The notes: generated by a model from the sequence alone, not told the origin. DNA of 61,328 nucleotides from a virus (IMGVR_UViG_3300045972_000344:1-61328); one strand, 5' to 3'. Positions 1 to 61,328 are shown, numbered from the stretch's first letter. Numbers and translations: made by a program.

Positions 1-7
1 GTCTGCT

Positions 8-202
8 TCACTCGCCCGCCTTGAGGATCCGCATGGTCCTGCACTTCCGGCAGCACCAGACCTGGGCCTCGGTGATCGGCGTCTTCCCCCATGGCGTCTT
101 GATGTTGAGCGAGACCCCGTCCTTCTCTATCCGTTCCCGGCAGGTCCGGCAGCGTGGCGTGGTGTCAGGCCGCCCTTCGAGGAGCCCGTGGTGGATCATC
201 AT
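8..202 (-). CDS. Small four-cysteine (zinc-ribbon-like) protein
   Basis: The product has 64 residues. Two CxxC pairs are visible (C18/C21 and C51/C54, with an extra C50), a spacing typical of small phage zinc ribbons. I chose the start at 202 because it overlaps the stop of the upstream gene as ATGA, which suggests translational coupling; the open frame extends further up but reads as low-complexity Gly/Arg/Pro there. It is the last leftward gene visible at the left edge. No function can be named; nucleic-acid or protein binding through a metal-stabilised knuckle is inference. Confidence 0.6.
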   Translation of the reverse strand: MMIHHGLLEGRPDTTPRCRTCRERIEKDGVSLNIKTPWGKTPITEAQVWCCRKCRTMRILKAGE

Positions 203-537
203 GCTCGGCTCCGGCGCGGCAGAGGCCGCTTCGCCTTGAGCGCGCGGATGCCCGGCAGGATCCTGGGGCCGATGTCCTGCCCGAGCCCGACCTCCAGTTC
301 CTGGGCGACCGCCTGCAGGTTGATGCCGTCCAGGATGGCCGAGGCGGATTCCTTCCATGCGCGCAGGTCCGCAACCTCCCGCTGAAGGCTGCACAGGTCC
401 GGGCCGTTGATCTCCTCCACCAGCGCGGCGGCCAGCGCCTGGACCTGGGTCGAGCGCAGGTCCGCGTCCGGGTCATGGGGGTTTAGTTCCCGGATCTTGG
501 CCCGGGTCTTCGTGAGGATGGCTTCGAGGCTGATCAT
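199..537 (-). CDS. Hypothetical helical protein
   Basis: The product has 112 residues, mostly charged and predicted helical by eye, with a basic C-terminal end rich in Arg and Lys. The start at 537 is preceded by an AGAGAGGAGC ribosome site. An earlier in-frame ATG at 690 is rejected because it would cover another small gene on the same strand (578-697). It overlaps the next gene by four bases. I do not recognise the family; position suggests a small early protein of the leftward unit. Confidence 0.6.
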   Translation of the reverse strand: MISLEAILTKTRAKIRELNPHDPDADLRSTQVQALAAALVEEINGPDLCSLQREVADLRAWKESASAILDGINLQAVAQELEVGLGQDIGPRILPGIRALKAKRPLPRRSRA

Positions 538-577
538 GTGGCTCCTCTCTCGGGGTGGCGGCTGCTGGACATATTCG

Positions 578-697
578 TTATTCGGTATCGGCGCGGCACT
601 CGTCACAGGGTTCATCCCAGCTAACCCCGTGCTCACAGAAACCGTCATCGCGCATGAAGTCGCGGTCCATTTCATCGAAGGCGATTTCATCGACCAT
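578..697 (-). CDS. Very small acidic Cys/His protein
   Basis: The product has 39 residues, is strongly acidic, and carries C21, H23, C31 and C34, a plausible compact zinc site. The start ATG at 697 follows a GGAGGAACC ribosome site and the stop is TAA at 578-580. It lies in a different frame from the extended upstream reading of the gene ending at 199, which supports the shorter start chosen there. Function unknown. Confidence rests on the good ribosome site, the tidy spacing between neighbours and the organised Cys/His pattern. Confidence 0.55.
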   Translation of the reverse strand: MVDEIAFDEMDRDFMRDDGFCEHGVSWDEPCDECRADTE

Positions 698-719
698 GGT
701 TCCTCCAGATGGACAAAAG

Positions 720-923
720 CTATTCGGGGATCAATTCAAGGCGAGCCGCGCCACAGGTGAGGACGAAGTTGCATTTCTCACCGTCCTCGCGCTTCGTGCC
801 CACCCTGTTCGTGTTGTTCGTGTCTGTGATTTCCAGGACATCCCCAAGGGCGGCAAATCCGGGGGCACCGGCACCGACTACCTTCACCTTGTCGCCGGGT
901 TTAATGGTTTTGAAGTCGATCAT
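720..923 (-). CDS. Small SH3/KOW-like hypothetical protein
   Basis: The product has 67 residues. It opens with a pattern (IKPGDKVKVVG) typical of SH3-like or KOW-type beta barrels, followed by a strand-rich segment. The start at 923 is supported by a GAAAGGAAG ribosome site; the longer in-frame reading to 1049 has no such site and overlaps the gene at 961-1194. Such barrels often bind nucleic acid or protein, but no specific role can be assigned. Confidence 0.6.
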   Translation of the reverse strand: MIDFKTIKPGDKVKVVGAGAPGFAALGDVLEITDTNNTNRVGTKREDGEKCNFVLTCGAARLELIPE

Positions 924-960
924 TGGTTCTTCCTTTCGAGGGTCGTGCAGATGGACAGGC

Positions 961-1194
961 TCACGCCTGGAATGTGGCAGCGACAGAGCCGTCAGGATTG
1001 AGATATGTGAGGTGCGAGGTCGGGTGGAAGTAGAGTGAGCAGTCCTCACCGTCCATCCATACCCTCAGCCGCGCCCCTGTGGAACCGACGATCACGCCCT
1101 CGCGGTGCTGCCCGTGGTTGGGGTCGGTGGACCGGACCCGCATTCCGCGCTTGGCAGGGACACCGTAGTTTTTTCGGATGTATTCCATGCTCAC
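961..1194 (-). CDS. Conserved-type small phage protein
   Basis: The product has 77 residues. The centre (RVRSTDPNHGQHREGVIVG, then a segment ending LYFHPT) resembles a recurrent phage protein of unknown function that looks like a small beta barrel. I chose the GTG at 1194 because GGAGG sits five bases upstream; the in-frame ATG at 1188 would have an 11-base spacer. It is the fifth of a run of small leftward genes. Function unknown. Confidence 0.65.
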   Translation of the reverse strand: MSMEYIRKNYGVPAKRGMRVRSTDPNHGQHREGVIVGSTGARLRVWMDGEDCSLYFHPTSHLTYLNPDGSVAATFQA

Positions 1195-1281: not shown

Positions 1282-1623
1282 TCATGCCCCCTGGACGCTC
1301 TGCGCGTCCTCCATGGCCCCCTTGACCGCCTTCACCAAGGATGGCTCTGCGTTGTTCTCCACCAGCACCCGCTCCGCCTCGCTGGCCGCGTAGGCAGCGC
1401 CCTTGCGCCAGCCCTCCCCGAAGCGGCCGTCACCCGGCTGCAGGCCCTGGCCCGGTGCCAGGAGTCCCTGGGCCCGCAGGTTCTCCGCGTGGCGGTGGAT
1501 GGTGCTGACCGCCCGGCTCGTCCGATGGGCGACCTCCTGGAGCGTGGCCGCCCTGCCCGTCTCCGCGCACACCGCGTAGACGGCATCCATGACCGTTTTC
1601 TGGAACCTCGACCCTGGCCTCAT
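1282..1623 (-). CDS. Winged helix-turn-helix DNA-binding protein
   Basis: The product has 113 residues. Residues about 25-60 (TLQEVAHRTSRAVSTIHRH, then a Leu-rich turn) read as a helix-turn-helix with wing, similar to LexA- or MarR-like recognition modules that sort promoters. The start at 1623 overlaps the primase stop as ATGA, so the two are probably translated together. A regulator of the leftward early unit or a replication accessory factor is a reasonable inference; the target is unknown. Confidence 0.65.
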   Translation of the reverse strand: MRPGSRFQKTVMDAVYAVCAETGRAATLQEVAHRTSRAVSTIHRHAENLRAQGLLAPGQGLQPGDGRFGEGWRKGAAYAASEAERVLVENNAEPSLVKAVKGAMEDAQSVQGA

Positions 1624-3332
1624 CGTCCGCCTCCCCTCGTGATCCGCGCCATGCGCGCCCGGAGTTCCACGAGGCTGCACTGAAGCCCCGCCAGCACCGT
1701 CTGGTCCCCGGCGACCTCGCCGAGCCTCTGGATGATCATTCGCTGCTCCCTCTGGATGAATTCTCGCTCAAGTCGAAGCTGCAGCCGCTTGGGATCGACC
1801 TGCCCGGCCTGCTGCTCACGGGCGCATGCCGCGCGGATGATGGCCTGCTCATCGTGGCCGAGTTCCGTGGCGTCCCCCTGGGCCTCCAGGAGATCCTCAA
1901 GAACCCCCGCGCGCTCCCGCCAATCCCACCAGCCGAGAGGGATGTTCTGGACCCAGGTCACGAATGGCCCCGCCTTGGCCGCCATCGCCACCAGGGCGCT
2001 CACGGCGTCATCGGGCGGTGTCATGGGGCGGGCGACTGGCTTGGCCTGCTGCTGGGCCTGTTTGGGGGCCTGCTGCGCATGGAAGCTGGCCGCTGGCACC
2101 TTGAGTTCGTGGGCCGCCGCGAGGACGATCTCGTCTCTCTGGTGCCCGGGCAGGTAGGCGATCCACTGGGCGACCTCCCGGGCCGCCTGCAGCCTGTCTT
2201 CGAGGCGCCGCAGATCCTTCCCCGCCTTGGCCTTGTCCAGGGCGAAGGTGGCCCAGTCCGGTGCTGCTGCGACCGCCGACTTGGCCCCTGCCCCGCGCGT
2301 CCGGGCCCAGGTATCTGGGTCATCCCCTTCCGGCAGGATCAGGAGGCGAACATCGAAGCCCATGGGAAGGGCCAGCGTGAGCGCCTTGTGCGCCGCCCGC
2401 TGGCCCGCTTCGTCCCCGTCCATCGCCAAGGTGAGACGGTTCGTCCACCGCTTGATCGCGTTCAGGTGCCCCTCGGTGAGCGCCGTGCCCAGGGGGGCGA
2501 CCGCCCCTTGGATCCCCTGCTGGCAGAGCGCGATGGCATCGAAGTAACCTTCCACCACCACCGCCCCGCCGTCCCTCATGAATGCCTTGGCCCGGTGAAG
2601 GTGGAAGACGACCTCGGATTTGTGGAAGAGCGAGGTCTCCCGGGTGTTCATGTATTTCGGTGAATCCGCCGGGGCGTCTGGCATGGCCCTGCCCCCGAAG
2701 GCGATCACCCGGCCGCGTGTGTCCTTGATCGGGATGGTGATCCGCTCCCGGAGGAAGTCGATCATGGTTCCCCGTTGGCTGCGCACCGCGAGCCCGGCCG
2801 CCTCCAGAACCTCCGCGCTGAACCCGATCCCCTGCAGGTAGGTGATGGTCGTGTCCCAGCCAGCCGGGGCGAATCCGATCCCCTCCTCCTCGGCGACCGC
2901 CTGGGTGATGCCCCGCTCCTCCAGGTAAGCCCGGGCCTCGTAGGACTCGTGGAGGGTGGTTTCGTAGAAGTCCTGCGCCGCCGCCAGGGCCCGCAGTGCT
3001 CGATCTTCCGCCGGGTTGAGCGGCTTCTGCTCTCGGGATGGGAGGGTGATGCCCGTCCGCCGGGCCATCTCCTCCAGGGCGGTCTCGAAGTCCATGCCGT
3101 GGGACGCCTGGAGCCAGTCCATCGCGTCTCCCCCGGCGCCGCACGCGAAGCAGTGCCATTGTCCCTTGTCAGGCTGCACCGAGATGCACGGTGTTCGCGC
3201 TCCGCCTCCATGGGTTGGGCATGGCCCACCCATCCATCCCGTCCCTTGCTTGCGGAGTTTGATTGTCTCTCCGCACAGCCCTGGCAGGTCTGCGGCGTCC
3301 CTGATAGCGCGGATCGCTTGTGTGCGGTCCAC
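1620..3332 (-). CDS. DnaG-type DNA primase
   Basis: This protein makes RNA primers for phage DNA replication. The product has 570 residues. An N-terminal CHC2 zinc domain shows C38, H41, C61 and C64 (PCPTH and WHCFACG). A TOPRIM core follows, with VVVEGYFDAI near residue 260 and AMDGDEAG near 297, the expected acidic metal-binding motifs. The C-terminal third is helical, where DnaG proteins usually contact the helicase; I see no fused helicase. I chose the GTG at 3332 because AAAGGAGGG lies just upstream; the ATG at 3365 would bury that site. It is the first gene of the leftward unit and is followed without a gap by the helix-turn-helix gene. Confidence 0.93.
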   Translation of the reverse strand: MDRTQAIRAIRDAADLPGLCGETIKLRKQGTGWMGGPCPTHGGGARTPCISVQPDKGQWHCFACGAGGDAMDWLQASHGMDFETALEEMARRTGITLPSREQKPLNPAEDRALRALAAAQDFYETTLHESYEARAYLEERGITQAVAEEEGIGFAPAGWDTTITYLQGIGFSAEVLEAAGLAVRSQRGTMIDFLRERITIPIKDTRGRVIAFGGRAMPDAPADSPKYMNTRETSLFHKSEVVFHLHRAKAFMRDGGAVVVEGYFDAIALCQQGIQGAVAPLGTALTEGHLNAIKRWTNRLTLAMDGDEAGQRAAHKALTLALPMGFDVRLLILPEGDDPDTWARTRGAGAKSAVAAAPDWATFALDKAKAGKDLRRLEDRLQAAREVAQWIAYLPGHQRDEIVLAAAHELKVPAASFHAQQAPKQAQQQAKPVARPMTPPDDAVSALVAMAAKAGPFVTWVQNIPLGWWDWRERAGVLEDLLEAQGDATELGHDEQAIIRAACAREQQAGQVDPKRLQLRLEREFIQREQRMIIQRLGEVAGDQTVLAGLQCSLVELRARMARITRGGGR

Positions 3333-3522
3333 GGTCCCTCCTTTGCAGGGATCAGCTTCGCCCATTCCGGTTATTTTTCAAGCACCTTTTGCGCCTGCCC
3401 CGTGAAAAAGCGTAATCCCGGGGGGGTGCAAAGGCTCTAAGCATGGCGTAACTCCTGGGTTTGAGGCTGGACACCCATTCTACTCCCATTGCCGACCCTG
3501 CGCTCTGGACAAAAAAAAGGGC

Positions 3523-3553: not shown

Positions 3554-3572
3554 AAGATGCAAAGGAGGCCCC

Positions 3573-10528: not shown

Positions 10529-10686
10529 TGGAGCCTCGCTTGGTCGAAGGTCATGGTGTCCACCGGGGCGAATTCATCCACGCGAGGGTGCTGGCACCCG
10601 GCCATGACGAGCCACCCGCACTCCGGGCAGGCGTAGCTGCCCCGCCTCAGATCGGTGTCTTCGGGGTGGTGCTGGCATTGGCTCAT
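10525..10686 (-). CDS. Small zinc-ribbon protein
   Basis: The product has 53 residues. Its core SYACPECGWLV is a CxxC knuckle, supported by C4, H6 and a later CQH, a plausible zinc site. The ATG at 10686 overlaps the stop of the giant helicase gene and its own stop overlaps the next start, so the three are translationally chained. Function unknown. Confidence 0.6.
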   Translation of the reverse strand: MSQCQHHPEDTDLRRGSYACPECGWLVMAGCQHPRVDEFAPVDTMTFDQARLQ

Positions 10687-13600
10687 GCGGCATCCTCGGT
10701 CTGCTGTGCCTTCCGGGCCCGGAGCGCGCGGAGCGTCATCCCGATCCCGCTGTCGTCCAGGTATCCCTCTTTCGACTGGTAGATGCCAGCCAGAACCTGC
10801 TTTTTCTGCACCCGGGCCCGGGCGTTCCGGTCGTAGGCGTGGTCAGCCAGCAGGTTGGTCACCTCCACATCGGAGGTCTGGCCCAGGCGGTCGATGCGCG
10901 CCGTCCTCTGCTCGTGGGTCTTGTAGGTCATCGGCTGGTCGAAGTGGATTAGGTGCTTCCCGCGCTGAAGGTTGGCACCCGTGGCCGCCGCGTCCGAGGC
11001 GATCAGGATGTCCGCCGTGGGCTCCCGGCCCGGCCCGCCCTGGAAGGCTGCCAGCTTGCCCGGCTTCTCCCTGGAGGAGTCCTTGCCGCTGATGGACGCC
11101 ACCCGCAGGCCCGCGTCCTCCATGGCCTTGTGGAGCGCCTCGACCGCTTCCAGGCGGTGCGCGAAGAGGACCACGGGCTTGCCTTCGGCGATGCTCTCCC
11201 GGGCCATCTTCACGGCGGCTGCCATCTTGGCCCCGCCGATGTTGATTGCTCGGTCCATGGCCGCCTCTCGGAAGGTGCCGACCGCCTTGCGCACCCCCTC
11301 TGCGATGGCCGGGTATTCCTCCTCCGGCTTCCCGATGAAGGAGCGCGGGGCGAGTTCCTTGGCCCATTTCAGGGTGTCTTCCCCGAGGCGCAGCTTCCCG
11401 GCCGCCTTCTCGATGGTGGCGATCTGGGTCTGCTGGTCCGCGTCCAGGCCGATGGTCTCGTCATGGTGGTGGGCCACCTTCCCGCTGCCCACGCGCTCGG
11501 TGAAGAAGTAGCGCGACAGTTCGCCCTTGAGGCCCCGCCGCGAGATCGCCGAGTCGGATCCGTAGCGCCGCAGGAATTCGTCTCGCCCCTGCCTCGGGTA
11601 GCGCACGGGATCGATCTTGTGGAGCCAGTCGTATGCCTCGCTCGGGTCGTTCTTCACCGGGCTCCCGGTGGCTCCGATGTAGTGGCTGGCGTTGTGCCCG
11701 TGGGCATCGATGATCTTGGAGAGGAGGCTGTCCGGCTTCCCCTTCCGGTTCAGGGCGTCATGCCCCTCATCGATCATCAGGGCATCGAAGCTGGCCCCTT
11801 CCTTGGCGAACGCCGCCTTCAGGTTGTCCTTCAGATCCTCCGGGGTGGCGCCCATGGCCCACTTCGCGGCATCGTCCTCGCTGATCCCCCGGTGGGACGC
11901 CAGCAGCTTCACTGAATCGTCCCGGACGGCCGCGTGGGTCATCACCACGGCATGCTTCTCTGGGTCTCGGTAAGCCTGCAGGCGCTGTTCAAAGGATTCG
12001 CCCGGGACGGCATGCAGCTTGATCCCGGTGGTGGGGTCCAGGAAGTTCGCCGCCTCGGCTCCGAACTGCTCCTGAACGATGCTCGGCACGGCCATGAGGA
12101 TCTTTTTGCCCTGCCCACTGTGAACCAGCGAGGAGGCGGCGCCCATCATGATCCCCGTCTTCCCGCTCCCGGCCCCGTAGAACAGCCCCATCCGGTGCAG
12201 GCTGTTGAACGCCTTGATCCCCCGCTGCTGGGCCCGGAAGTCCCGCCCGGTCCCGGCATCGTATCCCATGTGCATGCCCTCCTGGACCTTGACGGGCTTC
12301 ATGCTCCGGCTCTGAAATGGGGCCGATGCGTTGGGCATAGCGGCCGACAGTTGGGCCTCGATCCGCGCGCCCAGGCGGTAACGCTCGCCCGGCGCCGCTT
12401 CCGGCTTCTCCCATTTCTGGGGCTCATCGCTCTCGGGAGCACCCGACAGTTCATCGGAGCCGAAGAGAGCGCCCCCCTGCCCGAAGAGCCCGGCTTCGTC
12501 CGCCTGCTCCATGCGCTCGCGGACATTGACCGACCGGAACTTCCCGGCGCCGCCGCGCTGCATCTTGGCCTGCTTCGACCGCCGCTCCGCTTCGAGTTCG
12601 GCCGCCTTCTCCGCCCCGGCAGTCGCCTTGAGGTGCGTGGAGTAGTGGGCGATGTCCCCCGTCCCCATCTGGAGCACCTTGCCCGTCAGCTTGGAATAGT
12701 GGCCGTGGAACTTCTCTGCGAGGCTGCTCTGCATCTCGCCCTGGATCGATTCGGTGGCCGCCTTGAGGCCGCCCATCTTCTCGATGTAGTCCGCCCAGGG
12801 GCTGTGGGAATCGATGGCCGCGAGGCGCCGCTCCAGCAGGGCCCGCTGCTCCCCGTGGGCCGCCGCGAAGGTGGACCCTTCCGCCGGGGCCGGGCCGAGG
12901 TCGTCAAGCTGCTGCTGCAGATCCTGGCGCTGGGCCTCCCCGGGGGAGTTCTTGCGGATGATGGCGTTCTTTTTCCGCTGGTATTCCTGATACTCCGGGC
13001 TCTCGGTGGGGCCCATGTCCTCGAAGAGGCTCATGCCCCCGGTGGTCTCATCGAACTGCTCAGGGGCCGGGCCCAGGGCCTGGAGTGCGTTCGCCAGATC
13101 CTCGCCCTTCTTCCCGTGGTGCTCCCGGTAGAACCAGTCCCGGATGGCGTGGCGCTGGATCGTGGTGAGTTCCCCGATTCCGGCATGCGCAGCCTGCAGG
13201 CGGGGGTCTTCGGCGATGGCCCGGTGCAGGGCCTCCCGGAAGTCCGGGTGATCTGGGTCCAGGGTCTGCCCTTCCAGGGTTCCGGTGTCCCCGCTGGAGT
13301 CCAGGAACTTCCGGCCGAGGGCATCGATGCTCGCCTGGATCTGCTTCGGCTCCCGCATCTTCGTCTTGTAGACCGTGTGCCCCGCGCTGTCCCGCACGAC
13401 CTGCCCGTTGTGCATCTCGGCCACGGGCTCGCCCTGCTCATCCCGGACCATCTCGTGGGTGGGGACCAGCTTGTTGATGGTCTCCTCCATCTCCCCGTGG
13501 AGGTGGGGGGGGATCATGTCCCGCAGGGTCACGCCCCGCAGGTCCGAGTTGATGTCCGTCCCACGGTGCCCGTCCGCCCACCGCTGGCCGATGTAGCGCG

Positions 13601-16013
13601 CGATGGCAGGCTCCAGGTGCTGGGAATCCGCCCCCTCTGGGAGTTCGACCTTCCGGTTGAAAACGGGCGGCTCCATGAGTTCGTTGTCGTAGCGGCTGGG
13701 CGTCCGCTTGGCGAAGCCTGGGGGGATGTATCCCTCCTCATCCATCTCGCCCCGCTTGATGCTGAGGGCCAGTTCCCGCTCCGCCACGGCCGCGTGGTCG
13801 ATGGGCTTGATCAGCTTGTCCTGCCCGGCGCCCGGAATGGTGAGGACCGCCTCGCCCCCCTCGTGGTCTAGCTGGTAATCGTTCGGCATGAGGCCCATGG
13901 CCGCCGCCGCCTGGATCGCCCGTTCCGGGGTGCTCCGGCCGAGCGGAACCTGCAGGTTCTCCGCCGGGGTGCTCTGCAGGGCCGCGATGAGGGCCGCCCG
14001 CGCCTCGAAGCGACCAAGGGCGCCGCCCAGCACCGACCGGGCCTGCTTGAGCGCCTCCACCCGCGTCTTGTGCATCTCCGCCGCCGCCGCGAAGTCCTTG
14101 GGGGTGCTGAGAAGCTGTTCCTTCATGGTCTGGGCTTCCGCCCGCAGGCCCTGGGCCTCCTGGGTCGCCTGGGGCAGATCGTTCTGCTGCTCCTGGAGGT
14201 GGTGCGTCTCCAGGGCCTCCAGGATCGTCTTCTGGTCCGCAGGCTCAAAGCGCGACCGGATGGCCCGGCTCAAGACCTGGGCCGCGCACTCGGGCCCCAG
14301 GGTCTCGACCGTGTCCCGGTCCAGGAGCCCGGCGCCGAAGACCGCCAGCCCTGCCTCGTGGAGCGCCGTCCAGGCCGCGCTGCCCCGGGAGGCCGCCATG
14401 CCCTCCTCCTCACTCCCGTCCCAGGCGCCCTGCAGGGTGCTGCTCTCCGGGTTGGCCTTCTCCACTTCGTCCAGGAACTGGCTCACATGGGAGCGAAGGA
14501 TCTGCTCGGTCAGGTCCGCGACAAGAGCCTCTTTATCCTCGGGAGAAGGCTCGGAGGCTGTCGCCAAGAACCCCGGTTGAAAAACGCGCCCGGTCTTGGC
14601 CGCGACTGCCTCCTCATACGCCTCCCGGAGCGCCGCCCGTGCCTTGAGCATGCCCCCGAGGTTCGCATTGTCTGCCAGCGCATCCTTGATGGCCGTGGCC
14701 GTGGCCTCCGCCCTGCGCTGCTGGAGTTCCTTCGTGGCGATGTGGGCCTGGACGGCTGCCTGGGTCTGCTCCTCATTCCGGGGTGCCCCGGGCTCGGCAG
14801 GGTTGACGCGCGGGGCCAGCCCCTGGGATTCCTTCCATGCGGCCGTGGCGCCGACCAGCTTCTCCGCCGTCAGGCCGTTGGCTTCGGCGCGCTCTCGGAT
14901 CGCCCGGTCGTATCCGGGGCCCTTGTCCTGCTGGGTAGAGAGGATCGTGTCGATGGCGAGGCCGGGGGTGAGGTCGCCCCCCACTTCGGCGAGCCCGGCC
15001 GCGACCCGCGTCTCGGCATCGAGGGTGATCTTCCGCTGGGCTTCCTTGCAGGCCGCGAACGCCTGCTTCAACCGCTCCCGGTGGTAGGCACGGGCGACCT
15101 TGGGGTCTGCATCGGGGGTGTTGCTGAAGAGGTCCGGGGCCTCGGCTGCCTGGGAATCGTCCCCCAGAACCTGCTTGATGAAGGCGTCCTCCGCCTTCTT
15201 CCGGTGTTCCTTGGCTTGGACCGACTGCTGCACATGGGCCTCGCGCTGCTCGGGGGTCATGGCCTTGAGGGCTTCCTTCTCCGCCTGCTGCTTGGCCGTC
15301 CGGCGCTCGGTCGACTCCTGCTTGTATTGCTCGGGGCTCTTGGTCAGGTTGATGCGGAGGAAGTTCAGCTTTCCCCCGGCTCCTCCCACCACCCGGTGAA
15401 GACCAGGATGGCCTTCCACGGGGCGAAGAAGAACCGCATTGCCCTTCGTCCCCGGCCCATTAGGATGCACGGTGATCCAGCGGTCCCCGCTCTGGGGCGG
15501 GGTGTCTGCCTTGGCGACTTCGAGAGGTTCCTTTTCAGGATCCACCGCTTCAGCTTTGATCCGTTTCCCCTCAAAGAACGCCTCCAGTCCCCCGTGCTCA
15601 TGGGGCTTGCCGTGGTGGTCATGGGCCGTCTCCGCCCAGGATTCGCCCTCGCTGATCCAGTCCTCCAGGCTCCCGTTCGGGATCTGGCGGATGCTGCTGA
15701 TCGGGTGCTGCCCGGCGGGGTAGTGCTTCATCAGGACTTCGGCCGCGTGAACCGGGCTGTCGAACCCGAGGAGCACCTTCTCCTCATCGTGCTCGCCGTC
15801 CGGGTGGGTTTGCCCGACCACGAAGACGCTGGGGCTGTCCTTGTGCGGGCCCACCCACGCCTTGACCTCCCGGCGCCCCTCGCCATCGAGCCCCTTGATG
15901 ATCCCCCGTCCGGCCTTCATGCGCGTCATCCAGCCGATGCCGTCCGGGCCCTTCCCCAGCTTGAAACCGCCGGGCTCGTGGGTCATCTGGATCGGGATTC
16001 CTGCGATGTCCAT
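10683..16013 (-). CDS. Giant polyvalent protein with SNF2-like helicase
   Basis: The product has 1776 residues. Residues about 1-125 look like the inorganic-pyrophosphatase-like domain of phage polyvalent proteins (VFVVGQTHPDG, DEEKVLLGFDS). At about 180-225 lies a module with VHPNGPGTKGN and VVGGAGGKLN, seen in other phage multidomain proteins. A long charged helical middle follows. The C-terminal third is a superfamily II helicase: GAGSGKT near 1285, IDEGH near 1414, ATGSP shortly after, and RTARIDRLGQ near 1709. I chose the ATG at 16013 because GGAGG lies five bases upstream; the ATG at 16034 is the alternative. DarB-like relatives are injected and protect phage DNA. That role here is inferred. 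Confidence 0.8.
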   Translation of the reverse strand: MDIAGIPIQMTHEPGGFKLGKGPDGIGWMTRMKAGRGIIKGLDGEGRREVKAWVGPHKDSPSVFVVGQTHPDGEHDEEKVLLGFDSPVHAAEVLMKHYPAGQHPISSIRQIPNGSLEDWISEGESWAETAHDHHGKPHEHGGLEAFFEGKRIKAEAVDPEKEPLEVAKADTPPQSGDRWITVHPNGPGTKGNAVLLRPVEGHPGLHRVVGGAGGKLNFLRINLTKSPEQYKQESTERRTAKQQAEKEALKAMTPEQREAHVQQSVQAKEHRKKAEDAFIKQVLGDDSQAAEAPDLFSNTPDADPKVARAYHRERLKQAFAACKEAQRKITLDAETRVAAGLAEVGGDLTPGLAIDTILSTQQDKGPGYDRAIRERAEANGLTAEKLVGATAAWKESQGLAPRVNPAEPGAPRNEEQTQAAVQAHIATKELQQRRAEATATAIKDALADNANLGGMLKARAALREAYEEAVAAKTGRVFQPGFLATASEPSPEDKEALVADLTEQILRSHVSQFLDEVEKANPESSTLQGAWDGSEEEGMAASRGSAAWTALHEAGLAVFGAGLLDRDTVETLGPECAAQVLSRAIRSRFEPADQKTILEALETHHLQEQQNDLPQATQEAQGLRAEAQTMKEQLLSTPKDFAAAAEMHKTRVEALKQARSVLGGALGRFEARAALIAALQSTPAENLQVPLGRSTPERAIQAAAAMGLMPNDYQLDHEGGEAVLTIPGAGQDKLIKPIDHAAVAERELALSIKRGEMDEEGYIPPGFAKRTPSRYDNELMEPPVFNRKVELPEGADSQHLEPAIARYIGQRWADGHRGTDINSDLRGVTLRDMIPPHLHGEMEETINKLVPTHEMVRDEQGEPVAEMHNGQVVRDSAGHTVYKTKMREPKQIQASIDALGRKFLDSSGDTGTLEGQTLDPDHPDFREALHRAIAEDPRLQAAHAGIGELTTIQRHAIRDWFYREHHGKKGEDLANALQALGPAPEQFDETTGGMSLFEDMGPTESPEYQEYQRKKNAIIRKNSPGEAQRQDLQQQLDDLGPAPAEGSTFAAAHGEQRALLERRLAAIDSHSPWADYIEKMGGLKAATESIQGEMQSSLAEKFHGHYSKLTGKVLQMGTGDIAHYSTHLKATAGAEKAAELEAERRSKQAKMQRGGAGKFRSVNVRERMEQADEAGLFGQGGALFGSDELSGAPESDEPQKWEKPEAAPGERYRLGARIEAQLSAAMPNASAPFQSRSMKPVKVQEGMHMGYDAGTGRDFRAQQRGIKAFNSLHRMGLFYGAGSGKTGIMMGAASSLVHSGQGKKILMAVPSIVQEQFGAEAANFLDPTTGIKLHAVPGESFEQRLQAYRDPEKHAVVMTHAAVRDDSVKLLASHRGISEDDAAKWAMGATPEDLKDNLKAAFAKEGASFDALMIDEGHDALNRKGKPDSLLSKIIDAHGHNASHYIGATGSPVKNDPSEAYDWLHKIDPVRYPRQGRDEFLRRYGSDSAISRRGLKGELSRYFFTERVGSGKVAHHHDETIGLDADQQTQIATIEKAAGKLRLGEDTLKWAKELAPRSFIGKPEEEYPAIAEGVRKAVGTFREAAMDRAINIGGAKMAAAVKMARESIAEGKPVVLFAHRLEAVEALHKAMEDAGLRVASISGKDSSREKPGKLAAFQGGPGREPTADILIASDAAATGANLQRGKHLIHFDQPMTYKTHEQRTARIDRLGQTSDVEVTNLLADHAYDRNARARVQKKQVLAGIYQSKEGYLDDSGIGMTLRALRARKAQQTEDAA

Positions 16014-16043
16014 GCCGTCCTCCGTGCTCGACATTCTCCCATG

Positions 16044-20784: not shown

Positions 20785-21897
20785 ATGAAAAACGCCGCCC
20801 TCTCCATCCCCGTCTTCTACTCCCCGAAGCAGGCTGCCAAGAACGCCACCGCCTTCTCCCCGTCCGCCGGGAAGCCCGCCATCGTGGCCCAGGCCCTGCT
20901 CGACCGTGGGTTCGCCGTCACCATCAAGGCGCCCCGCCCCCTGCTGTTCTCCGAAATGGAGCGCGTCCACGGCACCCGCCATCTCATGGGGATCCTGGAC
21001 GGGACCATCTCCAACGGCTTCGGGAACAAGGATCTGGAAGTCGCCCGGACCCTCCCCTACACCACGGGCTCGATGCTCTCGGCTGCCCTGGCTGCCACCC
21101 CGGAAATGCCCGCCGTGTCGCTGTCGTCCGGGTTCCACCACGCTGGCTACACCAGCCCCTCCGGCTTCTGCACCTTGAATGGCCTCATGATCACCGCCGC
21201 CGCCCTGCTGTCCCAGAAGAAGGCCCGCCGGGTCGCCATCCTGGACTGCGATGCTCACTACGGGAATGGCACCGATGAAATCCTCCGCATGTTCCCCGCC
21301 CTGGCGAAGCACATCATCCACCGCACGGTCGGCCAGGGCTCGGTCCACCACTCCGCCTACCTCCAGAAGGTCGAGCGGTTCCTGTCCGAGATCCGGGACT
21401 TCGGCCCCGATGTGGTTCTCTACCAAGCGGGCGCCGATCCCCACGAGTGCGACCCCTTGGGCGGCTACATCAGCACCGATGAAATGCGCCAGCGGGACCG
21501 GATGGTCTTCGAGTGGGCCAAGAAGAACAAGGTCGCGCTCTGCTGGAACCTCGCGGGCGGCTACAACAAGGGTGGCGTCACCGGGATCGATCCGGTGCTG
21601 GCCCTCCACCTGAACACCTTCCGGGAAGCCTGCGCGGTCTACGGGCTCCCCGTCCCGGCCGAGATGGTGGTGGCTGCCCTCAGCCCGAGCGCCAAGGCTT
21701 CACGCAGCGCCTACTGGGACCAGGACTGGGACAACCAGGATCGCTCCTACGGCGGCCGCTACTCCCGGCGCGAATCCTCCCGGCGGGCCCAGCGGGTCTC
21801 CTCCCACGAGAATTGGAGCGGTGGCAAGGGCGCGAAGGAACTGGAGCAGCCCCGGCGCCTCAGTGAACGCTCGATGTTCGACCTGGACCGCTTCTAA
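20785..21897 (+). CDS. Histone-deacetylase-fold amidohydrolase
   Basis: The product has 370 residues. Zn-dependent enzymes of this arginase/deacetylase fold remove acetyl groups from lysine or polyamines. The expected active-site elements appear in order: GFHHAGYTSPSGFCTLNG near 116 (His pair and loop), LDCDAHYGNGT near 152 (metal-binding Asp and His), GADPHECDPLGG near 215 (second metal Asp), and AGGY near 257 (catalytic Tyr). About 70 residues past the core form an Arg/Ser-rich tail that could bind nucleic acid. The gene stands alone on the plus strand inside a leftward block, with its own promoter and ribosome site, and ends against a convergent gene. Histone substrates are unlikely in a bacterium; acetyl-lysine, acetylated polyamine or another amide is possible. 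Confidence 0.88.
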   Translation: MKNAALSIPVFYSPKQAAKNATAFSPSAGKPAIVAQALLDRGFAVTIKAPRPLLFSEMERVHGTRHLMGILDGTISNGFGNKDLEVARTLPYTTGSMLSAALAATPEMPAVSLSSGFHHAGYTSPSGFCTLNGLMITAAALLSQKKARRVAILDCDAHYGNGTDEILRMFPALAKHIIHRTVGQGSVHHSAYLQKVERFLSEIRDFGPDVVLYQAGADPHECDPLGGYISTDEMRQRDRMVFEWAKKNKVALCWNLAGGYNKGGVTGIDPVLALHLNTFREACAVYGLPVPAEMVVAALSPSAKASRSAYWDQDWDNQDRSYGGRYSRRESSRRAQRVSSHENWSGGKGAKELEQPRRLSERSMFDLDRF

Positions 21898-22085: not shown

Positions 22086-23617
22086 GCTGATCTCCGGGCT
22101 GCTTTGGCCTTCGTGTATTTAAGCATGCGTTGTAGGTGGCGGTCATCCCCCACCAGGAACCGACCACCGAAGTTCGTTCCAGGCATGAAGAACTGGCCGA
22201 GGGGATGGTCCGCGACCTCCCACTGGGCGTAGTTGTTCGTCTTCGCCACGAGGGCCTCGAATTCCCGGCGCTTGGTGGGGTTCGCCCAGATCGCCTTGGC
22301 CTCCTGCGCCTGCTGCAGCTTGTGGGCACTCGACCGCATCTTGGCTTGGTTCCCGGCGCTCGTGGCGGCCTGCAGTTCCCGCTGCCGCTTGACGATGTGC
22401 TGGTCGAAGTCGATCTGGGAATAGCGGGCCTGGATCTGGCTCTGCTGCGACCGCCAGCAGGAATTGTCCCTCGGCACGAACCCGTATCGGCTCCAGGCGA
22501 ACCCGCCCCCGCCGCAGGCCGCCGTCACATCGGCGTGGTGAAGGCCCCATGCCCGGTAGTAGTCCATCGAGTGGGCCAGGAACGCCTCGCTGTAACCCGA
22601 CCCCTGGACCGAATCGTCCGTGATCAGGTAGGCGTGGTAAACCGATTTTTCGGCCGGGTTGCTGAAATTGAAATTGCGCTGAAAGGTTCCGATCTTGCCG
22701 GGAAGGGCCGGGTCTCCGCCGAAGCTCAGGCTTGACGAACTCCCGTCAAATGCCAGCTTCAGCCCTGGCCCCCAAGGCACAAAGCAATCCTCGATCCACT
22801 GCCGAATGTCGCTCTTGCAGTGCAGATTCCAGCCGTTGATGAAGCCGTCCGTGAACCTGAAGGTCATCCCCCTGGCTGCGCACTCCCGGGTCACTGCATC
22901 GCAGATTGCCCTGCTGAGGGGTTCGGTCTGGGGGATCGGGTTCCCACCGAACATGCCGCCCGCGACTCGGACGGCGCCGAACAGCTTGGCGAATTCATCG
23001 TCAATGTCGGATTCAGAGGCTCCCGGGGTCTCCAGGCGCTGCCCGAAGATGCTGGCGAACTGGTCATCCGTCTCGGTCTCCGTGGGCCCGGTCGCAACCG
23101 GGGCACTTTGGGCCACGGCGGGGGCCACGGCGGGCGCGGGGGTGGCGAGTGGGACCACGGGCCGGGCAGGGGCCGTGCGCGCCCTGGTGGGCCTCACGGG
23201 CGCCGCTGCCATCGGGACGGTGTTCACGGTGGGAGGGGGTGCCTCCTGGCTGAACCCGCCATGGAAGGCCACGGCGTTCAGGAGGGCCCGGGCGTCCTGC
23301 GCGGTCTCGAAGTCCAGCACATCGTAGGCGCCTTGGCGGCCGTGGTGGTTCCCGCCTGCCCGGGTCCGGGTGTAGCGGATGCCGTGCCTGTCGGCGAGCC
23401 TCATCAGTTCTCGGGTGTCCGCCCCGTTGGTGGACCGGATCCGGGTGGGCCTCCCGTCCACGATGGTCGACCGCTCGTGAAGGTGGGCCTCCCGGCTGGT
23501 GGCCGCGATGGCGTGGTTCGCGTGGTAGTCGTGGACGAAGATCACCTTGCCGTTGACCACCCGGTAGTGGGCGTTCGTGTGGCGGTTCTCCTGGTGGGTG
23601 GCGGCGACAGCGGGCAT
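22082..23617 (-). CDS. Multidomain protein with GNAT-like acetyltransferase domain
   Basis: The product has 511 residues. The N-terminal 110 residues hold one copy of the beta-type module (AHYRVVNGKVIFVHDY) and a segment ending GGNHHGRQGAYDVLDF, shared with the next protein upstream. A Pro/Ala linker follows (about 120-185). Residues about 235-400 resemble GNAT acetyltransferases: QGSGYSEAFL (acetyl-CoA loop), YYRAWGLHHADVTA, and GGFAWSRYGFVP. Similar GNAT-like units occur in phage capsid-associated multidomain proteins. The C-terminal 100 residues are a basic helical region. It overlaps the small gene at 21894-22085 and starts three bases after the upstream stop. The acetylation target is unknown. 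Confidence 0.65.
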   Translation of the reverse strand: MPAVAATHQENRHTNAHYRVVNGKVIFVHDYHANHAIAATSREAHLHERSTIVDGRPTRIRSTNGADTRELMRLADRHGIRYTRTRAGGNHHGRQGAYDVLDFETAQDARALLNAVAFHGGFSQEAPPPTVNTVPMAAAPVRPTRARTAPARPVVPLATPAPAVAPAVAQSAPVATGPTETETDDQFASIFGQRLETPGASESDIDDEFAKLFGAVRVAGGMFGGNPIPQTEPLSRAICDAVTRECAARGMTFRFTDGFINGWNLHCKSDIRQWIEDCFVPWGPGLKLAFDGSSSSLSFGGDPALPGKIGTFQRNFNFSNPAEKSVYHAYLITDDSVQGSGYSEAFLAHSMDYYRAWGLHHADVTAACGGGGFAWSRYGFVPRDNSCWRSQQSQIQARYSQIDFDQHIVKRQRELQAATSAGNQAKMRSSAHKLQQAQEAKAIWANPTKRREFEALVAKTNNYAQWEVADHPLGQFFMPGTNFGGRFLVGDDRHLQRMLKYTKAKAARRSA

Positions 23618-47900: not shown

Positions 47901-49706
47901 ATGGGTGCTGTCGGCGTCATGGCTGGGGGTCAGAAAGTCACGATCCCCGGTGTCATCCCGGAGGTCGATGCTTCGGCAATGACCCCCGTCTCTCCGGTCG
48001 GGGCGAAGATCCCGCTGGTCATCGGCACTTCGGATGGGGGCGATCCCACCGTGGTGTATTCCTTCCGGTCGTTCGATGAGGCCAAGGCCGTGATCCGCTC
48101 GGGTCGCATCCTGTCCTACATCGCCCGGCTGTTCTCCCCCTCCCCGGACCTGCCCGGCGCTTCCATCGTGAAGTTCATCCGGGCCAGCGCCACGGCTGCG
48201 GTGGCCGCGCTCACTTCGGCCGCGCTCACCTTCACCAGCCGGGACAAGGGGTTTTGGAACAACGGCATCCGGGTCGCCATCGCCCAGGACGGCACGGGCG
48301 ATCCCCTGCTCCCCATCGTGGGCGGCGGCGGCTTCTTCAAATGCTGGACCGTGACGATCAAGAACCTCGCGGATAAGCAGACCTTCAGCTACTACCTGCG
48401 CTCCGGCCTGCTGCTCACCAGCCCGGCCCTCGGTTCCTTCAAGGCCGACTTCACGAACAATGTCTTCGACCTGATCGTGAACGGCGTCACGGTGGACGAG
48501 ATCCCCTTCTCTGGGGCGCTCACCTTGCGGGATGTCACCGCCTGGATCAATGCCCACGCGGGCTGGACCGCCCAGACGATTGGCCCCTCCTGGTATCCCT
48601 CCACCGTGCTGAATTCGGGGACCACCGCCATCGGTGTGACCTCGATCTTCTACCCGGCCGAGTCCGGCCTGCTGATCTACCTGCTCGGCAGCCAGAACCC
48701 CCTGGTCACCCTCGCCCAGTCCGGCGTGAACGCCGCCCTCACGGCCATCACCGAGGCGCCCCTCGCGGGCGGCCTGGGGCGCTCCTACGACACCCTGGCC
48801 TCCGGCGACCTGAACCCGGCCCTCACTCTGGCGGCCGTGACCACGGCGCACGGCGTCTTCATCCAGTCCGCCACCCTGGCCCTCCAGCAGCTTGCCCTCA
48901 CCCACTGCATCACCATGGGCGGCACGGATTACCAGAAATACCGGATCCTGTTCGCGGGCCTGAACTTCGCCGCGACCTCCCCGGTGGACGGGAACGATGC
49001 CACCGCCTCCACGGATGCCCTCGCGGCTGCGGCTGCGGTCACCCGGGCCCAGGCTCTGGATGGCCCCGCCGTCATGTGCTTCAACGGCACGACCACCCCG
49101 AATCCCATCAGCGGTGTCGCCGAGCAGCTTGGCGGCCTGGGTGTCGCTGCCCAGGCCCTGGGTCTCTGGTGCGGGCTGAAGACGGCCATCCCCTTGACCC
49201 ACAAGCCCCTGATCTCCTCGGGCCTGGAATTCCCCAACCTCTCCAAGTCCCTGACCGAGTCCCTGCTGGACGCGGGCGCCTTCTTCCCCTACTTCGATGC
49301 GGACACCGGCCGGACGCGAATCGTCCAGGCAATCACCGCCTACCAGTCCACGAATCCCAGCTTCCGCAACCTGCAGGGGCTGACCATCCAGCACACCATC
49401 GAGCGCCTCTGGCTCTCCGTGCTGGCCGCTTACATCGGCGCCCCGCTCGACCTGCAGACGGGCGAGCGCATCAAGGCCGACTGTGCCGGTGCGATGGACG
49501 GCTCGATCCTCACGGGCAACAACCCGGACGGGTTCCTCACCGAAGGCCGGAAGGCTGGCGCTCGGCTCCCCGCTTGGGAGGGCCTGCGCGTCATCGGCGA
49601 TTCGACCGTGGGCGCCTGGACGATTGATGTCAATGCCCACCCCGTGGGAGAAACCGACTACATCCGGGTCCGCACGAAGCTGACCCCCGTCCCCATCGAA
49701 CTGTAA
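47901..49706 (+). CDS. Contractile tail sheath protein
   Basis: The product has 601 residues. Features of sheath proteins are present: an early TIPGVIPEVDASAMTPV segment, the strand-rich insertion in the middle, and a C-terminal third with PLTHKPLISSG, FFPYFDADTGRTRIVQAIT, and a closing ETDYIRVRTKLTPV. The sheath contracts to drive the tube through the envelope and makes this a myovirus-type phage. AGGAGG precedes the ATG, and the tube gene follows after 12 bases. Confidence 0.85.
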   Translation: MGAVGVMAGGQKVTIPGVIPEVDASAMTPVSPVGAKIPLVIGTSDGGDPTVVYSFRSFDEAKAVIRSGRILSYIARLFSPSPDLPGASIVKFIRASATAAVAALTSAALTFTSRDKGFWNNGIRVAIAQDGTGDPLLPIVGGGGFFKCWTVTIKNLADKQTFSYYLRSGLLLTSPALGSFKADFTNNVFDLIVNGVTVDEIPFSGALTLRDVTAWINAHAGWTAQTIGPSWYPSTVLNSGTTAIGVTSIFYPAESGLLIYLLGSQNPLVTLAQSGVNAALTAITEAPLAGGLGRSYDTLASGDLNPALTLAAVTTAHGVFIQSATLALQQLALTHCITMGGTDYQKYRILFAGLNFAATSPVDGNDATASTDALAAAAAVTRAQALDGPAVMCFNGTTTPNPISGVAEQLGGLGVAAQALGLWCGLKTAIPLTHKPLISSGLEFPNLSKSLTESLLDAGAFFPYFDADTGRTRIVQAITAYQSTNPSFRNLQGLTIQHTIERLWLSVLAAYIGAPLDLQTGERIKADCAGAMDGSILTGNNPDGFLTEGRKAGARLPAWEGLRVIGDSTVGAWTIDVNAHPVGETDYIRVRTKLTPVPIEL

Positions 49707-57024: not shown

Positions 57025-58058
57025 CCCAGCCGGAATCCGGTCTCGTCACCCGCGCCCCCATGGCGCCCTCCCGTGCCCCCTCCCCCGGTGGTGGTCTCGT
57101 CCAGATGGACAAGGCCGCGATCATGGAGCGGGTGAAGGTCATCCACTCAATCATGGAAGAGGTCATGGTCGAGGGGCATCACTACTTCACCTTCGGGACC
57201 ACCAAGCGGAAGTTCCGTCTGGAAAACGGCACGGTCGAGGAGCGGGAAGTCCCGCAGTTCTCTCTCGGCAAGGCCGGGGCCGAGGTCGTCTGCCTCACCT
57301 TCGGGCTCACTCCCGATCTCGATTCCGTGGTGGTGGCCGATGACCCCAACGCCCCGCGCACCATCCAGATTTCCGAATGGGTGGACGATCCCACCGCTGG
57401 CCGCTCGGGTCGCCGGAAGATCATCAGAGATCAGGTTGTGACGGGTTACTACGAGGTGAAGTCCACCTGTGCCATCTGGTCGAACCAGGGCACCCTCCTG
57501 GCCCGGGCCTCCGGCTCGTGCAATTCCTGTGAGACCGCCTTCGTGAACCAGGGCTACTCGAATGTGAAGAACTCCATCCTGAAGCGGGCGGAGAAGCGCG
57601 CGATGGTGGCGGCCGTGCTCATGGCCTCCGGCGCTGGTGATGTCTTCGTGCAGGATCTGGAGGACACCCCCACGGCGGTGGATCCGAACCAGGGTTTCCG
57701 TGCTGCTGCCACCCAGGGCAGCGCGCAGACCGGCACCCAGACGGGCGCCCAGGGCGGCTCCCAGAACGTGGGCGCTGCTCCGGCTGGCTGGCTCTCGGAG
57801 CCCCAGAAGAAGCTGCTGTTCGCCAAGGGGAAGAACCAAGCCCCCCCCGCCTCCGAGGAGGTCATCCGGCACATCATCCATGTGCTGGACGGCATGCCCA
57901 AGCCCCAGGCGAAGCCCTACTTCGATGCCATCGCGGACGGGAAGCCCCAAGGCGCCGAACTCTGGGCCCAGGCCCGGCAGACCGTGGAAACTGCCGCCGC
58001 CGCCAAGGCTGGCGCTGGCCCCGGTGGCGAGGTGCCGCCCGACCAGCCGCCCGTGTAA
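57021..58058 (+). CDS. Candidate ssDNA-annealing/recombination protein
   Basis: The product has 345 residues. The core (about 30-200) has the pattern YYEVKSTCAIWSNQG, then GSCNSCETAF and NVKNSILKRAEKRAMVAAV, seen in phage proteins encoded beside Cas4-like nucleases and often taken as ssDNA-binding or annealing proteins. A Gln/Gly/Thr-rich linker (about 225-250) leads to a helical tail. It overlaps the nuclease gene by four bases. It also contains the only ACGT I found in the window (57766-57769). The biochemical role is inferred from pairing with the nuclease. Confidence 0.55.
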   Translation: MTQPESGLVTRAPMAPSRAPSPGGGLVQMDKAAIMERVKVIHSIMEEVMVEGHHYFTFGTTKRKFRLENGTVEEREVPQFSLGKAGAEVVCLTFGLTPDLDSVVVADDPNAPRTIQISEWVDDPTAGRSGRRKIIRDQVVTGYYEVKSTCAIWSNQGTLLARASGSCNSCETAFVNQGYSNVKNSILKRAEKRAMVAAVLMASGAGDVFVQDLEDTPTAVDPNQGFRAAATQGSAQTGTQTGAQGGSQNVGAAPAGWLSEPQKKLLFAKGKNQAPPASEEVIRHIIHVLDGMPKPQAKPYFDAIADGKPQGAELWAQARQTVETAAAAKAGAGPGGEVPPDQPPV

Positions 58059-58061
58059 CCC

Positions 58062-59408: not shown

Positions 59409-60047
59409 ATGTCCCGTCCCGCCTCCCCCGCCCAGAAGTCCCTCATCGCCCGCCTCGTGGCCGAGCGCCCTGGCGTCCAGTTCACCGCCCCGATGGTCTC
59501 GCTGATCACCGCCGCGAACGCTGGCTCCTCCGCCTTCTCCATGCAGTCCGCCTCCTGGCTGATCGAGCAGCTTTTCGCCACCCCCAAGCCCACCGCCGCC
59601 GCCGCCCGCTCCAACGAGGCGCCTGCGGAACTCGGCTACTACCTCGTGGACGAGACCGTCTATGTGGTCGTGGCCTCCAAGACCTCCGGCAAGCACTACG
59701 CGAAGCGCATGAGCGTGGTCGATGCCCGTGGCCGCTGGGAATACGCCCACGGCATGGTCTACCATCTCGCTGGCGCCCACCGCCTCACCGTGGAAGAGGC
59801 CGCCATCCTCGGCCGCTCCCTGGGCTGCTGCATGATCTGCGGCGCCACCCTCACCGACCCCGTCAGCGTGGAGCGCGGCATCGGCCCCATCTGCGAGACC
59901 CGCGTGGCTGGCACCTACGCCCCCCGCTCCGCCTCCCGCCGCACCGCCCCCGCCATGGTCGTGGATTGCCCCGGCTGCGAGGACTGCGATGGCGAGGGTG
60001 GCACCCACCGCCAGGGCCCCGCCTACCGCGAAGCCCACGCCGTCTAA
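59409..60047 (+). CDS. DUF6011-type small protein with treble-clef-like cysteines
   Basis: The product has 212 residues. The N-terminal 60 residues are helical with a basic stretch. A strand domain follows (YYLVDETVYVVVAS). The mark of the family is CCMICGATLTDP followed by RGIGPICETRV, a four-cysteine zinc site common in phage proteins. A further CPGCEDCDGEGG motif lies near the end. A terminator-like hairpin follows. Function unknown. Confidence 0.7.
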   Translation: MSRPASPAQKSLIARLVAERPGVQFTAPMVSLITAANAGSSAFSMQSASWLIEQLFATPKPTAAAARSNEAPAELGYYLVDETVYVVVASKTSGKHYAKRMSVVDARGRWEYAHGMVYHLAGAHRLTVEEAAILGRSLGCCMICGATLTDPVSVERGIGPICETRVAGTYAPRSASRRTAPAMVVDCPGCEDCDGEGGTHRQGPAYREAHAV

Positions 60048-60056
60048 CCCAACCCT

Positions 60057-60076
60057 GGGGGCCCTTCGGGGCCCCC
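60057..60076 (+). terminator. Strong GC hairpin without a T run
   Basis: GGGGGCCC and GGGCCCCC flank a TTCG loop. The tail is C-rich with few T, so termination may be weak or factor dependent. It lies between the genes at 59409 and 60098. Confidence 0.6.
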
Positions 60077-60097
60077 TCCTCCCCGCAAGGAGCCCCC

Positions 60098-60412
60098 ATG
60101 CCCACTCCCACGATCTCCCTGGACTTCTGCCGTGCGGAACTCAACGCCCCGACCTGCGTCATCCCGAACGGGCACATGCTCCGCATCATCGGCGGTGTCC
60201 AGGCGCCCATCGGTCTAGTTTCCCCCGGTGGCGCCAGCTTGGCCTCGAAGGCGAAAATGGCCGCCTACGCCCACACCTTCGCGGCCGGGCCCCGGATGCT
60301 GGCCGCCCTGAAGGGCGCCCTTGAATACGCCGACAACGGCACCCCCCTCCCCCCCGGCTCCCTGGCTGTCGCTGAAATGCGCGCCGCCGTGGCAGCCGCT
60401 GAGAATCGATAG
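60098..60412 (+). CDS. Hypothetical protein
   Basis: The product has 104 residues. The first half is strand-rich with CRAELNAPTCVIPNG, and the second half is a pair of Ala-rich helices with AGPRMLAALKGALEYAD, a pattern common in small phage proteins of unknown role. AAGGAG precedes the ATG. It is followed by two similarly small genes. Confidence 0.6.
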   Translation: MPTPTISLDFCRAELNAPTCVIPNGHMLRIIGGVQAPIGLVSPGGASLASKAKMAAYAHTFAAGPRMLAALKGALEYADNGTPLPPGSLAVAEMRAAVAAAENR

Positions 60413-60420
60413 GATCCTCG

Positions 60421-60630
60421 ATGCCGATATTCCCAGATACCTTCCCCCGCCCGCCGTTCGTGACCGATGAGCACCTGGAATTCCTGGACGACCTCCGCGA
60501 GTCCGGCGAGACCAATATGTTCGGTGCCCGGCCCTACCTCGCAGCCGCCTTCCCGGCGCTGTCCGAGCCTGAATCCTCGAAGGCCCTCAGCTACTGGATG
60601 GCCTCCTTCTCTGAACGCCACCCCCGCTAG
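60421..60630 (+). CDS. Hypothetical small protein
   Basis: The product has 69 residues and is acidic and helical (DEHLEFLDDLRESGETNMFG), ending in ASFSERHPR. Its sequence resembles small phage proteins without a known function. It follows the previous gene by eight bases. The ribosome site is weak. Confidence 0.55.
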   Translation: MPIFPDTFPRPPFVTDEHLEFLDDLRESGETNMFGARPYLAAAFPALSEPESSKALSYWMASFSERHPR

Positions 60631-60679
60631 TCCCTTTCCCAACCCAGGGCCGCCGCGCCCACCCCGCAAGGAGCACCCC

Positions 60680-61328
60680 ATGAAGCAAGGTCTTGAACTG
60701 AACGATCTGGCCCAGACCATCGTTCGCCACGCGTCCGGCAAGGAGGATTTCATCGCCCCTTCCTCGGCCCTCCGGTTCGGCGTCAACCCCGCCAACCAGA
60801 TCACCGTCTCCCTCCCGAACGACCGTTCGTTCGACCTCACCACCCTGGCCGAGAATCAGGTCGGCGACTTCCTCGGGATCCCCCGGCGCTTCGCCCAGCG
60901 GCTCTCCACCGAGGTGCCCGAACTGCTGGCGCACAACCTGAACACCCTCGGCGGCCGTTCCGACTCCCGGCGCATGCTGCGCACCCTGGACGGCGTGGGC
61001 CGCTCCTTCCTGTCCGACTCCTACAAGCGGGTGGACAACGAGGAGGTCTTCGATGGGATCTTCCCCTCGCTCATGCGCCTCGGGGCCCAGATCGAGTCCT
61101 GCAATGTCTCGGAGGACTACCTCCATCTGCAGGCCGTCATCCACCGCATGGAGGGCGAGATCCGGGTGGGCGATGCCGTGCGCTACGGCGTGGTCATCTC
61201 TAATTCGGAAGTGGGCCGGGGCTCGCTCTCGATCCGCCCGATCCTCTATCGGCTCCGCTGCCTGAACGGCATGGTCGTGGCCGACCAGACCCGGCGCCGC
61301 GCGCACATCGGCGGCTCCTACCTCGAAA
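60680..61328 (+). CDS. DUF932-type phage/plasmid protein, partial
   Basis: The first 216 residues are present and the gene runs off the window. The sequence matches DUF932 proteins: FGVNPANQITVSLPND, VGDFLGIPRRFAQRL, FLSDSYKRVDNEEVF and YGVVISNSEVGRGSLS are all in the expected order. These proteins are common in phages and plasmids, usually near recombination and replication genes; their function is not established. AAGGAGC precedes the ATG. Confidence 0.85.
   Translation, partial: MKQGLELNDLAQTIVRHASGKEDFIAPSSALRFGVNPANQITVSLPNDRSFDLTTLAENQVGDFLGIPRRFAQRLSTEVPELLAHNLNTLGGRSDSRRMLRTLDGVGRSFLSDSYKRVDNEEVFDGIFPSLMRLGAQIESCNVSEDYLHLQAVIHRMEGEIRVGDAVRYGVVISNSEVGRGSLSIRPILYRLRCLNGMVVADQTRRRAHIGGSYLE

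Follow-up and report, generated by a model that had tools for sequence, protein, structure and literature searches.

The viral DNA stretch IMGVR_UViG_3300045972_000344:1-61328, hereafter the window (61,328 nucleotides), carries genes for a major capsid protein, a tail sheath protein, a DNA primase and a 1783-residue protein with a helicase domain (Table 1). It represents part of a contractile-tailed phage genome of roughly 90 kb, since the 88-kb contig of a related phage, termed here the sister, is colinear with it, in reverse, across its whole length. The four-base palindromes ACGT and GTAC are almost completely missing from this DNA, and they belong to a longer list of restriction-site-like words that the phage has eliminated, or nearly so.

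Eliminated words and silent codon choice

A direct count gives one ACGT and no GTAC in the window, exactly as in the original prediction. The shortfall is large under every null model. Base composition alone predicts 186 copies of each word; the 150–200 copies that the original prediction had quoted as chance therefore hold as a base-composition value but not as a fair expectation, which lies at about 60–120 each. First-order Markov expectations are 118 (ACGT) and 50 (GTAC), and second-order Markov (Markov-2) expectations 114 and 83. A synonymous codon shuffle, holding proteins and codon usage, predicts 107.8 ACGT (standard deviation 7.1) and 121.6 GTAC (standard deviation 8.8), and a stricter shuffle, which also holds the base following each codon, 61.8 and 70.6. 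Across 200 shuffles, the minimum was 87 copies of ACGT and 97 of GTAC, or 50 and 52 under the stricter scheme. The tetranucleotide check against Markov-2 and the codon shuffle thus confirms the depletion, which is uniform across six 10-kb bins of the window and bears out the earlier view of a genome-wide property. With restriction-site avoidance in phages defined as an observed/expected ratio below 0.1 for a word with an expectation above 15, the window avoids ACGT, GTAC, CGWCG, GCCGGC, CCGCGG and others.

Other palindromes of the same composition had been described as common. GATC, TCGA, CATG and TGCA are indeed near expectation, but AGCT looks normal only in total: nearly all of its 117 copies are AAGCTG (91) or CAGCTA (21), and the GAGCT and CAGCTG contexts are gone. 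CTAG, described as low but present, has 11 copies against 24 expected on the codon null, and such lowness is common.

A scan compared 3,584 patterns with the codon shuffle, namely 4–6-base palindromes (gapped and ungapped), degenerate 6-base palindromes and every word of 5 or 6 bases. Once overlapping words are removed and multiple testing is corrected for, 19 words count as depleted in the window, and a shuffled copy yields none. Sixteen of the 19 stand at less than one tenth of their expected copies. The original prediction, which named ACGT and GTAC only, was therefore right about both but incomplete, these being two of about 16 eliminated words. Observed/expected counts are 1/261 for CGWCG, 1/128 for GAGCT, 0/120 for GTAC, 1/110 for ACGT, 0/79 for GCCGGC (RCCGGY being partly depleted), 1/65 for CCGCGG, 1/46 for GCACGC, 0/31 for AGGCCT, 0/29 for CGATCG, 0/21 for TCGCGA and 1/22 for CTCGAG. 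RGGWCCY, proposed from its component words, is likewise absent (0/49), and CAGCTG, GCCWGGC, CGGWCCG, AGCGCT and others are also eliminated or nearly so. Single surviving copies are scattered across the window (Table 1).

Table 1. Features of the window and surviving single copies of eliminated words
Feature	Position	Strand	Remarks
Whole window	1..61328	.	Contractile-tailed phage fragment; GTAC, ACGT and at least 12 other words eliminated or nearly so
Major capsid protein	28257..29744	+	phrog_752; 82% identical in sister, 41–53% in phages within Acidobacteriota genomes
Tail sheath protein	47901..49706	+	phrog_279
1783-residue protein, N-terminal InPase-like domain and C-terminal SF2 helicase	10683..16034	-	
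DNA primase	1620..3365	-	phrog_6444
Histone-deacetylase-like protein	20785..21897	+	PF00850
Sole ACGT	57766..57769	.	AAC GTG, Asn-Val, within open reading frame 56652-58058
Sole CGWCG	1086..1090	+	Word count, about 261 expected
Sole GAGCT	22723..22727	-	Word count, about 128 expected
Sole CCGCGG	29170..29175	.	Word count, about 65 expected
Sole CTCGAG	35846..35851	.	Word count, about 20 expected
Sole GCACGC, both strands considered	3141..3146	+	Word count, about 46 expected

The accepted words are mostly palindromic, the exceptions being GAGCT, GCACGC and a mildly depleted CCTTA; CGACG and its complement together make up CGWCG. The eliminated words are built like Type II sites, interrupted and W-centred palindromes among them, and most are classical Type II restriction specificities. 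Known enzymes include RsaI (GTAC), Hpy99I (CGWCG), NaeI and NgoMIV (GCCGGC), SacII (CCGCGG), StuI (AGGCCT), PvuI (CGATCG), NruI (TCGCGA), PvuII (CAGCTG), XhoI (CTCGAG) and EcoNI (CCTN5AGG).

Avoidance is written into codon choice. All 85 Asn, Asp, His and Tyr codons preceding Val end in T (NAT, never NAC), against 78% C-ending elsewhere, and all 32 Lys, Glu and Gln codons preceding TAC end in A (AAA, GAA or CAA, never AAG, GAG or CAG), against 82% G-ending elsewhere; both switches are just as originally described. Thr codons preceding T include no ACG among 141, compared with 33% elsewhere, and the missing ACG is replaced by the preferred ACC (0.85 versus 0.59 elsewhere), not by ACA. Following a G-ending codon, Tyr is TAT in 27 of 27 cases, compared with 12% elsewhere. 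Word loss runs via silent change and not via protein change, as seen both in the codons beside Val, Tyr and Thr and against the protein-preserving null.

The sister phage and the turnover of lost words

The DNA of the sister is about 75% identical to that of the window (capsid identity in Table 1). It has likewise lost GTAC (observed/expected 1/123), GCCGGC (0/101), CGATCG (1/30) and TCGCGA (0/24). ACGT is not lost (156 copies versus 184 by Markov-2), nor are CGWCG (347/304), CCGCGG (95/98), AGGCCT (50/44) and CTCGAG (71/56) depleted. The sister has its own lost words: GTCGAC (0/34), GTGCAC (0/16), TGCGCA (1/14), CCTNAGG (1/19), CACGTG and GCTNAGC. The pair shows how such a list turns over: although only about a quarter of nucleotides differ (about 25% divergence), several words have been fully removed from one lineage and stand at normal frequency in the other.

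Orthologous sites can be followed in 39.5 kb of aligned DNA, counted as kept in both phages, present in the window only and present in the sister only. These counts are 0/0/78 for ACGT, 0/0/149 for CGWCG, 0/1/41 for CCGCGG, 0/0/19 for AGGCCT and 0/0/23 for CAGCTG. The control words TGCA (43/63/71) and TCGA (76/99/135) retain about 36–38% of the sister's sites. GTAC, GCCGGC, CGATCG and TCGCGA would have been lost either in the ancestor that the window and the sister share or independently in the two lineages; ACGT, CGWCG, CCGCGG, AGGCCT, CAGCTG and CTCGAG appear to have been lost in the window lineage only. Remoter relatives within Acidobacteriota genomes are mostly near-normal in ACGT and CGWCG and have their own sets of missing words. 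As the sister is normal for these two words and the remoter relatives mostly near-normal, their loss is most simply a derived event of the window lineage. The original prediction treated ACGT and GTAC alike; both are indeed lost, but the GTAC loss is shared with the sister and the ACGT loss is private to the window lineage.

A different missing-word list within one host order is seen in a related phage contig (G390 contig C109) from the same order as the window's likely host, discussed below: GCRYGC (0/38), TCGNCGA (0/22), CTRYAG (0/20), CATCTC (0/15) and CGTCTC (0/14).

The aligned sites also bear on mutational decay, by which methylated cytosines inside the words (in ACGT, for instance, 5-methylcytosine) would raise C-to-T change and erode them with no selection at all. 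Thirty-three of the sister's 78 aligned ACGT sites do read ACAT or ATGT in the window, and these two words stand at 1.37 times the codon null. The other 45 replacements, however, are not the simple transition; for Asp, Asn, His and Tyr before Val, C-to-T is the silent route in any case, and the G-to-C replacement of Thr ACG before T by ACC follows codon preference rather than a C-to-T spectrum. Elimination is essentially complete and extends equally to GTAC and GAGCT, and such methylation decay is not known for either word. Chromosomes of the likely host order, moreover, retain ACGT. Decay is a very unlikely cause.

The probable host and its chromosomes

The host is probably a member of the Acidobacteriota. 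Three genomes of one order of this phylum, among them the metagenome-assembled genome NC_groundwater_765_Ag_S2p5_67_25, harbor related phages whose capsid proteins are 41–53% identical and in which related structural genes follow one another in the same sequence. In addition, at the nucleotide level the window's deacetylase-like gene is about 70% identical to genes from several other genomes of the likely host order. Genome size, GC content and completeness might point to Holophagales, a guess at most. A search for CRISPR (clustered regularly interspaced short palindromic repeats) spacers compared 20 kb of the window with 77 genomes of the likely host order; apart from phage genes and the deacetylase-like gene, all matches were short and at chance level. 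A baseplate-protein scan of genomes found nothing, and neither a sheath scan nor a deacetylase scan of viral contigs yielded matches.

A Thermus host, raised by weak DNA and sheath matches, was dropped in favor of the closer Acidobacteriota phage capsids. The window's capsid protein is about 29% identical to those of Thermus phages, no nearer than to those of Bordetella and Pseudomonas phages (31–32%), and the Thermus relatives avoid AATT and partly CCATGG and CGGCCG, not ACGT or GTAC. In the Thermus myophages Lalka8, Cumys and phiMa, AATT is wholly absent; CCATGG is missing too, and CGGCCG nearly so, in Cumys and phiMa, and Lalka8 has almost no GCCGGC.

In chromosome pieces from the likely host order, ACGT stands at about 0.85–1.3 times and GTAC at about 0.6–0.75 times the Markov-2 expectation, with CGWCG near expectation and 0–2 eliminated words per roughly 60 kb. 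The depletion in the window exceeds that of these chromosomes and, for ACGT and CGWCG, that of the sister; with the chromosomes near expectation, it is therefore not a host signature. A compositional origin, in which codon or oligonucleotide bias of host or phage makes the words rare with no nuclease involved, could draw on the general lowness of CTAG, CTTA and CTAA words and on the mildly low GTAC and low CGATCG of the host-order chromosomes. We regard it as highly improbable: depletion persists against a null that holds protein and codon usage, and the normal ACGT and CGWCG of both the host-order chromosomes and the sister contradict it.

Even less probable, to the point of being negligible, is that the words are binding signals of host or phage, serving regulation, packaging or replication and excluded except where needed. 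One copy each of some words does remain, although nothing specific attaches to these copies, which are scattered over the window, and about 16 unrelated words are involved. The sister holds 156 ACGT and 347 CGWCG, and no ACGT site is shared in the aligned DNA. The form of this idea in the original prediction, a host that uses ACGT and GTAC as signals, is not supported by the chromosomal frequencies given above.

Restriction genes have been met in the phylum. One genome from the likely host order (G378) has an NgoMIV-type endonuclease gene in a four-base overlap with a gene for a C5 cytosine methyltransferase, a pair that by family would be specific for GCCGGC. XhoI-type genes, for CTCGAG, are present in 16 of 357 Acidobacteriota genomes, one of these being a fragment in the likely host order.

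Probable selection by restriction-modification and comparison with other phages

The words were very probably purged by selection through restriction-modification in the phage lineage. The lineage would have met, over and over, hosts with Type II systems of many specificities, and survival would have been higher for phage copies from which an unprotected site had disappeared, almost always via a silent codon change. In this way ACGT, GTAC and at least 12 other recognition words would have been purged, in a set that turns over between lineages, some losses being shared with the sister and others private. With restriction enzymes of these specificities as the presumed agent, such selection accounts for why particular words are lost, why the changes are silent, why all genes are affected evenly and why relatives differ in their losses. 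The original prediction had favored restriction enzymes too, and gains support from the many further site-like words that are gone, a relative that differs in its lost words, the undepleted host-order chromosomes and replacements that follow codon preference.

Several points weigh against this explanation. No enzyme specific for ACGT, GTAC, CGWCG or GAGCT turned up, no family search having been aimed at them, and XamI-type genes, for GTCGAC, occur in only 3 of the 357 genomes of the phylum, none of them listed for the host order. The host assignment rests on related phages and one shared gene, not on CRISPR spacers or culture. In favor of the explanation, scanning of window proteins revealed no methyltransferase, and no methyltransferase domain in the 1783-residue protein; the window being a fragment, however, a phage methyltransferase may sit outside it, and the sister has one.

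Extreme loss of orthodox Type II sites (observed/expected below 0.1, complete or nearly so) occurs in about one tenth of viral genomes and is commonest in non-temperate phages (Rusinov et al. 2018, PMC6286503). The window likewise loses orthodox Type II sites to below 0.1; it differs from those phages in that its words are inferred and not matched to host enzymes, and in that the non-palindromic GAGCT and GCACGC are also eliminated. An exceptional number of lost words is ruled out by nine reference phages scanned in the same way at 40–50 kb. Eliminated words number 11 in the window's first 49 kb, compared with 13 in Bordetella phage vB_BbrM_PHB04, 11 each in Pseudomonas phage YuA and Burkholderia phage BcepNazgul, 9 in phiC31, 6 in T7, 2 in phiMa and 0–1 in Dolphis, Sansa and Touem01. 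PHB04, YuA and BcepNazgul thus resemble the window in number, although their lists differ. PHB04 and the window both lose CCGCGG, CGATCG, TGGCCA, CAGCTG, AGGCCT and GCCWGGC, but as whole words ACGT and GTAC are not lost in PHB04. Escherichia phage T7, like the window, has lost a four-base word (GATC, 6/121) alongside several longer ones; it differs in having fewer eliminated words and in encoding the annotated anti-restriction protein Ocr.

GTAC is also rare in Helicobacter and Campylobacter, which carry PabI-family enzymes recognizing this word and avoid it (PMC10273834). There, the host genome itself is depleted; here, only the phage and its sister are, and the host-order chromosomes keep most of their GTAC. 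That a base-excising PabI-type glycosylase, rather than an RsaI-type endonuclease, purged GTAC from the phage is very improbable, as the family is reported from Helicobacteraceae, Campylobacteraceae and a few hyperthermophilic archaea, not from Acidobacteriota (PMC10273834).

The depletion is genuine and pronounced and of an ordinary kind, a clear example of the known escape of phages from many bacterial restriction enzymes, and biologically it confirms a known mechanism. What may be new are the specificities implied for Acidobacteriota, chiefly the non-palindromic GAGCT and GCACGC. It is a doubtful but conceivable further step that GAGCT, GCACGC and the GAGCTS-only pattern of the sister mark undescribed restriction specificities of this phylum, so that phage sequence would predict unknown enzymes. 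The phage can be read as a list of its hosts' restriction specificities, for bacteria in which both phages and restriction systems have received little study.

Several genes of the two phages deserve mention. The sister's methyltransferase (82826-84169), outside the part shared with the window, has an N-terminal ParB-like domain (N6_N4_Mtase) and matches a Type II methyltransferase model. In the window, the protein at 23621-26272 and the 1783-residue protein both start with an InPase-like domain (PF18823); the former, close to its N-terminus, matches DarB-like antirestriction and minor head families, and the latter runs into the SF2 helicase. The histone-deacetylase-like gene is common to window and sister and is likely a host-derived metabolic gene. 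A tRNA-Met(cat) gene lies at 6621-6695 of the window, with a counterpart at 58034-58110 of the sister. In Thermus phage Lalka8, an annotated CRISPR repeat region (54281-54741) and a TnpB-family gene are found inside the structural gene cluster.

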